Below, in pieces: positions 56,719 through 58,827 of a stretch of 64,000 nucleotides of DNA. The stretch comes from Burkholderiales bacterium (GTDB lineage: Bacteria; Pseudomonadota; Gammaproteobacteria; Burkholderiales; Casimicrobiaceae). The stretch is from the NCBI GenBank assembly GCA_025354165.1, contig JANXNI010000038.1:31484-95483 (forward strand). Direction: 5' to 3'. A program made the translations under genes and the position numbers. Positions within the stretch are counted from its first letter, which is position 1; each line of letters begins with the position of its first letter. The notes below the pieces were generated by a model. The model was given only the letters and a program-made list of their open reading frames with translations. It did no database searches and was not told where the DNA came from.

Positions 56719-58617
56719 CTAGAAACTGTCAATAGCCAGATTGGCACAAGTCAAATCGCGCGAACTGACCACCGCCAGCCACGCATCAATTTTCGGTAAT
56801 TCGTAATGGAAAAAGTAGCGCACGGCGGCGAGTTTGCCATCTTTGAATGCGCTTTGTTCGGCTGGCAAAGATTGCACGACATCCAGCCAGACCCACGCCA
56901 GAACTGTGTGCCCGAAAGCCTGCAAATAAGGCGTTGCGTTCGCCAGTGCTTCGGTCGGATTACCGGTTGACCACGCAGATTTGGTTGCAGCGCCAACGCG
57001 TTGCAGCGCACGTGCTAGCGCCTGGGCGTGATCTGCGAGCGCAGGCACATGCATCGCGCGCATGATCGTGTCGTTCATCTTGGTCGCGAGCAACGTAAGG
57101 CCTTTGCCGCCGTCCATCACCACTTTGCGCCCAAGCAAATCTAGCGCCTGAATGCCGTGCGTGCCTTCGTGAATCATGTTCAGGCGGTTATCGCGCCAGA
57201 ACTGCTCCACCGGAAAGTCCCGCGTGTAGCCGTAACCGCCGTGAATCTGGATCGCGAGCGAATTCGCCTCCAGACACCATTCGCTCGGCCAGCTTTTGAC
57301 GATGGGCGTCAGCACTTCAAGCAAGAGTTTTGCCTCCGCCGCAGCGTCAGTTTCGCCCGTGTGCGTCTCGTCAACCAATTTCGCGCAGTAAAGCGCCAGC
57401 GCCAGCGCACCTTCGCAATACGCCTTTTGCGCGAGCAACATGCGCTTGATGTCGGCGTGCTCGATGATGGGAACCGGGCGCTGTGCCGCGTCCTTGCCTG
57501 TGCCAGTGATTGGACGCCCTTGCGTACGCTGCTTCGCGTAATCAAGCGACGCTTCATAACCCGCCATACCCAGCATCGTGGCGGCGAGACCCACGCCAAT
57601 GCGCGCCTCATTCATCATATGAAACATGCAGGACAAGCCCGCGCCCGGCTTGCCGACGAGATAGCCAATCGCGCCTGCCTTGCCGTCCGGTTTGAACCTA
57701 CCTTCACCGAAATTCAGCAACGCATTCGTCGTGCCGCGCCAACCACATTTGTGATTGAGGCCCGCTAGCGAAACGTCGTTGCGTTCACCGAGCGTCACAC
57801 GTGTACCGATTGGTTCTGCCCCCTCTCCCCTCGCGGGAGAGGGTTGGGGTGAGGGGGCTGGTAGCGTCACCAAAAACTTCGGCACGATGAACAGCGAAAT
57901 CCCTCGCGTCCCCGGAACCAGTTTGCCATCCACATCAGGAATTTTGGCAAGCACCAGATGCACGATGTTCTCGGTGACTTCATGCTCGCCGCCCGAAATC
58001 CACATCTTGTTGCCAGTGAGGCGATAACGCGGACCGAGCGCATCGCCCGCATCCTCAAGCACAGCCTTCGTAGCAACATCCGAGAGCGATGAACCCGCCT
58101 GCGGTTCCGACAAACACATCGTGCCCATCCAGCGCCCGGAAAACTCGTTCTTCGCGAAGACTTCCTTCTGTTTTTCAGTGCCGTGCGCCATCAGCAAATT
58201 CGCGTTGCCAACGGTCAACATTGCCCAACTGATGCTCACCGACGCCATGCTGAAAATCGCGTTCGCCGAGGCTTCAACCGTGTACGGCAACTGCATCCCG
58301 CCCAACTCGTAATCCTGCGCCGCCGCCAACATACCCGAGCCCGCATACGCCGCGAACGCATCATGCGTCGCCTGCGGCAGGACCACCTTCTCGCCGTCGA
58401 AATGAGGCTCCTGCAAATCAACCAAACGATTGAACGGCGCGAACTTTTCTTTCGCGATTTTCTCGGCGGTGTCGAGCACTGCACCGAACGTCTCCGCGTT
58501 GTGATCAGCAAAACGCGGACGCTCGCACAGCGTCTCCACCTTAAGCCATCGATGAAGCAAAAAATCCAGTATTGCGCGCACCCGTTGTCTCCGTTCTGGG
58601 TAGTTGGGTTTGTTCAT
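56719..58617 (-). CDS. Acyl-CoA dehydrogenase, long form with C-terminal extension; carries an in-frame repeat-derived segment
   Basis: MCLSEPQAGSSLSDVATKA; NEARIGVGLAATMLGMAGYEASLDYAKQRTQGR; HGGYGYTRDFPVEQFWRDNRLNMIHEGTHGIQALDLLGRK. Confidence 0.93.
   Translation of the reverse strand: MNKPNYPERRQRVRAILDFLLHRWLKVETLCERPRFADHNAETFGAVLDTAEKIAKEKFAPFNRLVDLQEPHFDGEKVVLPQATHDAFAAYAGSGMLAAAQDYELGGMQLPYTVEASANAIFSMASVSISWAMLTVGNANLLMAHGTEKQKEVFAKNEFSGRWMGTMCLSEPQAGSSLSDVATKAVLEDAGDALGPRYRLTGNKMWISGGEHEVTENIVHLVLAKIPDVDGKLVPGTRGISLFIVPKFLVTLPAPSPQPSPARGEGAEPIGTRVTLGERNDVSLAGLNHKCGWRGTTNALLNFGEGRFKPDGKAGAIGYLVGKPGAGLSCMFHMMNEARIGVGLAATMLGMAGYEASLDYAKQRTQGRPITGTGKDAAQRPVPIIEHADIKRMLLAQKAYCEGALALALYCAKLVDETHTGETDAAAEAKLLLEVLTPIVKSWPSEWCLEANSLAIQIHGGYGYTRDFPVEQFWRDNRLNMIHEGTHGIQALDLLGRKVVMDGGKGLTLLATKMNDTIMRAMHVPALADHAQALARALQRVGAATKSAWSTGNPTEALANATPYLQAFGHTVLAWVWLDVVQSLPAEQSAFKDGKLAAVRYFFHYELPKIDAWLAVVSSRDLTCANLAIDSF
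57818..57862. repeat. Palindromic GC-rich repeat (CCCTCTCCC-CTCGCG-GGAGAGGG TTGGGGTGAGGG) inside the acyl-CoA dehydrogenase gene
   Basis: tgccccctctcccctcgcgggagagggttggggtgagggggctgg, translated on the minus strand as PAPSPQPSPARGEGA. Confidence 0.85.
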
Positions 58618-58736: not shown

Positions 58737-58827
58737 GCGTAGGGTGGACACCCAACGGGGTCCACCATCGGTCGTACGCCACCCCCGTTCGGCGGAACCG
58801 CAAGCGTTCCACCTTACAGCGCTACGC
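58737..58827. repeat. GTAGGGTGG...CCACCTTAC-type inverted-repeat intergenic element
   Basis: gcgtagggtggacaccc...ggtccacc...gttccaccttacagcgctacgc: ends inversely repeated, plus internal GTGGAC/GTCCAC hairpin. Confidence 0.55.

Follow-up and report, generated by a model that had tools for sequence, protein, structure and literature searches.

A palindromic triplex-motif repeat translated in frame within an acyl-CoA dehydrogenase gene of a Burkholderiales bacterium, and its probable relation to DUF559 endonuclease elements

In E. coli MG1655 the G/C-rich intrastrand triplex motifs (TM or TM-ECO, formerly PIT) are always located in intergenic regions and have no associated transposase (Holder et al. 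2015, PMC4666352). Hundreds of bacterial genomes contain motifs of this kind, to which the literature consulted assigns no enzyme. The Rickettsia palindromic elements (RPE; Ogata et al. 2000) are found in frame within many unrelated, often essential proteins and, according to PMC2229807 and PMC10969869, are apparently tolerated there as loops. In-frame insertion into proteins is already known from these elements; in the case reported here it is made of a repeat previously reported as intergenic. Work on the DUF559 protein VsrA of Caulobacter treats it as a repair nuclease of the Vsr-like kind (PMC12907096). No hint of a DUF559-bounded element dwelling in proteins was found in titles and abstracts of open-access papers on DUF559, an earlier notice elsewhere being possible, and literature searches for the encoded peptide or for DUF559 together with repeats returned nothing relevant.

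The window, i.e. the whole stretch of 64,000 nucleotides analysed here, carries at 56719-58617 on the minus strand an intact ORF of 632 amino acids encoding a FadE2-like acyl-CoA dehydrogenase (ACAD). The codon score of the whole ORF is positive. Pfam domains PF02771, PF02770, PF00441 and PF12806 (acyl-CoA dehydrogenase N, M, C1 and Acyl-CoA_dh_C) lie on either side of the insert, and this set of an N-terminal, a middle and two C-terminal domains is, like the fold, that of a FadE2-type enzyme. The nearest PDB structures are FadE2 and FadE1 of Pseudomonas aeruginosa (Foldseek 8png, TM-score 0.85/0.90). Within the ORF we detected a G/C-rich palindrome of 35 nt at 57821-57855 (plus strand), CCCTCTCCC-CTCGC-GGGAGAGGG-TT-GGGGTGAGGG, in full CCCTCTCCCCTCGCGGGAGAGGGTTGGGGTGAGGG. 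It consists of a pyrimidine arm (CCCTCTCCC, 57821-57829), a purine arm pairing with it (GGGAGAGGG, 57835-57843) and a third-strand segment (GGGGTGAGGG, 57846-57855) in the triplex-motif geometry of PMC4666352, all read on the plus strand. The hairpin is single-copy in the window and did not occur in dinucleotide shuffles (0 cases); the 21-mer CCCTCACCCCAACCCTCTCCC has one match in the window compared with 0 expected. Of the single-strand folds, that of an outer palindrome GCCCCCTC...GAGGGGGC (57818-57858) is the most stable (z = -2.7 and -2.5 for the two strands in DNA folding), these being energies of the duplex hairpin, whereas the triplex form is predicted from the sequence. The original prediction of an in-frame palindromic repeat in this gene was borne out: the repeat lies inside an uninterrupted ORF, the translation quoted for it (GISLFIVPKFLVTLPAPSPQPSPARGEGAEPIGTRVTLGERNDV) is correct, the frame is kept and the family flanks are intact.

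By sequence class, the repeat is a TM. Its two pyrimidine/purine arms and the third, G-rich strand segment (33-37 nt) correspond to the table in PMC4666352. The copy number, which the prediction had proposed to count, is far above chance in the genome of the window (95% complete, 97 contigs): there are 56 perfect CCTCTCCC-N3..12-GGGAGAGG hairpins against 0 in a reversed-pattern control, and the 21-mer comprising arm and third strand occurs at 82 places against 1 in this control. The reported intergenic location does not apply to the window copy inside its intact ORF, nor to the copies held by about 20 other genes; membership by sequence stands, location being a reported property outside the sequence definition. 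The consensus of 83 complete copies from the genome is TGTC-[TM]-gtnnGGTGGa...; in many cases a second, inverted unit follows, which yields a doublet of about 105-110 bp. The window copy comprises one TM unit followed by the first part of the inner spacer, GGCTGGTAGCG (57856-57866, plus strand; consensus GG..GGTGG), and it looks like a truncated doublet. Within the order the distribution of TMs is patchy (56 of 150 genomes). Another repeat-like inverted sequence, GGGTGGACACCC...GGGGTCCACC...GGAACCGCAAGCGTTCCACC, was seen in the intergenic region upstream of the host gene (58737-58820).

Reading of the TM in its six frames indicates how it can be translated. One frame always contains a stop. 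Two more contain one only when GGGTGAGGG is preceded by A, as TAG or TAA depending on the strand, which means that five of the six frames are open or can be opened by a single base change. In intact genes using these two frames the critical base was G in 12 of 12 cases, compared with 16 G and 50 A elsewhere (p = 7e-7); since an ORF with a stop is not counted as coding, this statistic is partly circular and is meant as a description. The window copy has G at this position and encodes PSPQPSP. The comparison shows how a single base can make a TM that carries a stop readable.

The inserted stretch extends approximately from 57799 to 57871 (minus strand) and adds about 19 codons between SLFIVPKFL and GERNDV; its limits are taken from the alignment with orthologues of the genus having an empty site (L017, L018, L019, L021, L022, L025, L026). 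The net gain relative to the closest of these, 19 codons or 57 bp, exceeds the palindrome itself (35-41 bp), and the exact event may have been any of several (target duplication, filler, truncated doublet). The insert is flanked by an 8-bp direct repeat AGCGTCAC (57791-57798 and 57863-57870), possibly a target duplication or a product of chance. We do not claim a target-site duplication, because deleting the insert together with one copy of AGCGTCAC leaves a loop 5 amino acids shorter than those of the relatives and because one copy overlaps the inner flank of the repeat. In the AlphaFold model of the host protein (pLDDT 85.8 overall) confidence is lowest in the insert (residues 261-271 below 50, about 47), which forms a loop between two strands, while the FadE2 fold is otherwise intact. 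The model thereby supports a tolerated surface-loop insertion, as originally proposed: the extra residues would sit in a disordered surface loop with the fold kept. The enzyme presumably remains active and the insert would be nearly neutral.

The host gene was traced through 17 genomes of the genus, and 15 orthologues could be read at the loop between SLFIVPK and RND[V/I]. Seven of them have the short, ancestral loop (e.g. VDTNGKLSGERND) and eight carry repeat-derived inserts, a single TM in the window copy and TM pairs in the other seven. Outside the genus the loop segment measures 22-23 amino acids in 54 of 59 parsed sequences, and none of the 59 contains a TM in the loop. A conserved domain part shared with unrelated genera, named in the original prediction as the observation that would speak against an insertion, was not found among the parsed orthologues. 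On a gene tree built without the loops, presence and absence of the insert required 5 changes by parsimony (4-6 over bootstraps), at least 3 of them forced by well-supported branches; the insert has therefore been gained and/or lost repeatedly within the genus.

Other repeats were observed in the same enzyme. A second palindromic family (GTTCGCCCTGAG...CTCAGGGCGAAC and GGTTCGACAAGCTCACCACGAGCGG type) is present in frame in L029 and L030 (after QGRP[IV]) and in L024 (STSSPRAE), and the C-terminal loop before F-x-x-GK contains repeat-like inserts in L018, L021, L023 and L024. A subtype with an extra hairpin between purine arm and third strand was found in L023 (C-terminal and main loop) and L024 (main loop). 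In a distant orthologue, L049, tandem (V/A)RAGDAG-like repeats have expanded the main loop, which independently points to its permissiveness.

The phenomenon extends well beyond the single example of the original prediction. In a survey of all pattern hits of the genome with their flanks, the ORFs being scored for codon usage, 40 of 89 TM units lay in ORFs with a positive score. A conservative set comprises 23 complete units spread over about 19 genes, in most of which conserved domains surround the insert: the window ACAD and a second ACAD, the E2 and E3 subunits of PDH, IcmF, QueG, 5-oxoprolinase, UreC, a ligase-associated DEXH helicase, LeuS (a pair, in the editing domain), NnrD/E, EarP, DnaX and a GH31 enzyme, among others. 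Altogether about 20 genes of this genome hold in-frame TMs, including leuS, dnaX, dnaG, ureC, aceF, icmF, queG and earP. UreC could be aligned over its full length with a urease alpha subunit of solved structure, and the insert is the only large gap. The loops of LeuS, NnrD/E and UreC were hit recurrently in several species, each loop being filled in some members of the genus and empty in others. In G001 the loop of ureC contains a 35-mer identical to that of the window ACAD together with the same inner flank (GGCTGGTAGCG). In the single-contig genome G005, 17 of 27 hairpins are in coding-like ORFs; for G019, of the same family, the value is 6 of 6, and two genomes from other families gave 1 of 13 and 0 of 7 (coding-like being defined by codon score and ORF length, which may take in some N-terminal extensions). 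Pfam scans of the inserted hosts gave host domains and DUF559 only, with no Hint (protein-splicing) domain at the insert. In two genera HsdM of Type I restriction systems has been invaded in roughly the same loop, ahead of [YK]xDIPGFC (L298 of G005, L329 of G019), and HsdR of G019 holds two TMs.

DUF559 came into view through DnaG. In G005 the insert-bearing DnaG has a DUF559 domain beside a TM-encoded linker. Searching the genus with PF04480, we obtained 25 DUF559 loci, many of them within far longer ORFs. At 23 of the 25 a TM-type palindrome lies no more than 100 bp away on one side or both, and at 16 there is one on both; the two loci lacking a TM nearby form a separate DUF559 clade. The 30 best loci in the remaining families of the order gave a similar count with a limit of 250 bp: 28 have a TM on one side or both, and 17 on both. 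For comparison, a TM within 100 bp was recorded for 0 of 6000 random 320-bp segments from RAYT loci and for 36 of 16000 from ACAD loci outside the genus (about 0.2%). The flanks are inverted repeats exceeding all 100 shuffles at 20 of 22 testable loci in the genus and at 20 of 30 in the rest of the order. According to Pfam, DUF559 is embedded in MnmG (between two C-terminal domains), LipB (two species), DnaG, a HODM-like protein and Hydantoinase_B (HyuB), the last at an identical site in G014 and G004, and TM-DUF559-TM cassettes are in frame within dnaG, lipB, mnmG and hyuB. The DnaG of the window genome (L126) has a hairpin too, a solo TM (LPNPSPLKGEGLYQP) that matches the DUF559 cassette of G001 DnaG (L333) at its right end, which fits the expectation for a cassette remnant.

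The DUF559 domain between the TM ends measures 105-110 amino acids and keeps the residues of a Vsr-like fold: E14, D43, E54, D56 and H60 are invariant in alignment A2 (E, D, E-x-D-G-x-Q-H). Its profile matched the PDB entry 3hrl, "Endonuclease-Like Protein", strongly (1.6e-33) and 3r3p, "Mobile intron protein", weakly (E 0.064). Weak matches to unrelated small PDB proteins were treated as chance. Compact free-standing elements were found in the sister species G004 and G006; their ends are identical to the window TM at 33-34 of 35 positions, and the nuclease ORF stops at a TAA inside the right-hand TM. The difference from the window TM common to the ends in both species is the stop-determining base. 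At this codon the window copy has CAA, coding for glutamine (57844-57846, minus strand), in place of the TAA of the free-standing element and of the majority of intergenic copies.

We consider it likely that the window insert, translated in frame, is a half-decayed mobile repeat of palindromic type, the remnant of a DUF559-bounded element that DUF559 probably moves. For mobilisation by DUF559 as such, our confidence is moderate. The intact non-autonomous form would be the doublet of two inverted TMs around a short spacer; in the full-length form these two ends would enclose the DUF559 (Vsr-like) endonuclease domain. The DUF559 protein most likely recognises the palindromic ends or cuts at them and in this way spreads both full elements and short forms, the doublets being its non-autonomous derivatives. 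Copies arriving in a permissive loop with an open frame would survive as an additional loop rich in Pro, Gly, Glu and Arg, because five of the six frames are open or one base from open; other genic copies would be purged. In the window copy TAA would have become CAA, so that translation continues and adds the loop to the acyl-CoA dehydrogenase. We lean slightly towards a more general proposal: TM repeats may be the ends of an unrecognised class of mobile elements living in host proteins, with the Vsr-like DUF559 endonuclease as transposition or homing enzyme. The terminal repeat would provide the stop of the nuclease, and a one-base switch (TAA to CAA, on the other strand TAG to TGG) would turn it into a translated loop, allowing essential genes to be colonised without splicing.

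Co-location cannot tell a mover from a cargo. Alternatively it might be that an RPE-like, protein-invading TM is moved or copied by another agent (a transposase, or replication and repair at non-B DNA) and that DUF559 is cargo or a user of the same sites, which we regard as possible but unlikely. E. coli carries TMs and had no DUF559 hit in our control search, and neither did several TM-rich or TM-bearing members of the genus with PF04480: G015, despite 196 hairpins in a genome of 80% completeness, and G010, G003 and G009. Furthermore, the sole DUF559 gene found in the window genome (L337, G000:C14:4772-5080) has ends of a different subtype, CCCTCCCC-TTGAA-GGGGAGGG, a palindrome otherwise nearly absent from this genome (about 3 exact copies). 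Against a different mover speak the bracketing of DUF559, which is very tight, two-sided and orientation-consistent in many genera, and the near identity of the terminal repeats of the free-standing elements with the window repeat.

That the doublets are REPINs mobilised by a RAYT (TnpA-REP, Y1 tyrosine) transposase seems highly improbable. Their architecture is REPIN-like and a PF01797 search detected Y1_Tnp genes in 15 of 17 genus genomes, but none of the 30 RAYT loci in the genus (88 kb) has a TM nearby, even with a relaxed pattern. Still less probable is that the insert reflects an error of assembly or that the gene is a pseudogene in decay. The source genome is a draft, but the same phenomenon recurs in independent assemblies including the single contig of G005, the ORFs are intact over full-length domains and the codon score of the whole ORF is positive. 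As to a native, slowly evolving loop or low-complexity expansion resembling the repeat by chance, the loop does tolerate other expansions (the tandem AGD repeats of L049), but the exact multi-copy palindrome, its recurrence with the inner flank in G001 ureC, the nearly constant loop length outside the genus and the empty orthologues lead us to reject a native domain part for practical purposes.

A testable enzyme candidate would explain the spread of TMs and their patchy distribution. The genus is in addition a natural experiment in insertion tolerance, the repeatedly invaded loops of LeuS, UreC, ACAD, LipB and others providing a map of insertable sites in essential enzymes. Protein-coding palindromes, best known from Rickettsia, are thereby extended to another proteobacterial lineage.

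Compared with TM/TM-ECO (PMC4666352), the repeat is of the same class (CCCTCNCCC, short loop, GGGNGAGGG, 2 nt, GGGTGAGGG), multi-copy and often in inverted pairs. In contrast to the E. coli TMs, which are intergenic with no mobile enzyme reported, many copies here are translated in frame and the family brackets DUF559. With RPE it shares the in-frame insertion into many unrelated protein genes; it is set apart by its Burkholderiales host (tree outgroups), shorter units and the linked candidate autonomous enzyme DUF559. REPINs with RAYT (PMC3116915, PMC2817692) are likewise inverted doublets of a short palindrome, non-autonomous and with a separate enzyme proposed, but here TMs have no RAYT near them, the candidate is a PD-(D/E)XK/Vsr-type endonuclease instead of a Y1 enzyme, and insertion is in frame into proteins. 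Like Vsr-like/EDxHD homing endonucleases and inteins, DUF559 is a small Vsr-fold nuclease encoded in host genes at recurrent sites; those in LipB, HyuB, MnmG and DnaG are at most suggestive of a site-specific cleavage of the empty allele. Unlike in these systems, there is neither intein nor intron, and DUF559 stays translated in the host protein, flanked by palindrome-encoded linkers.
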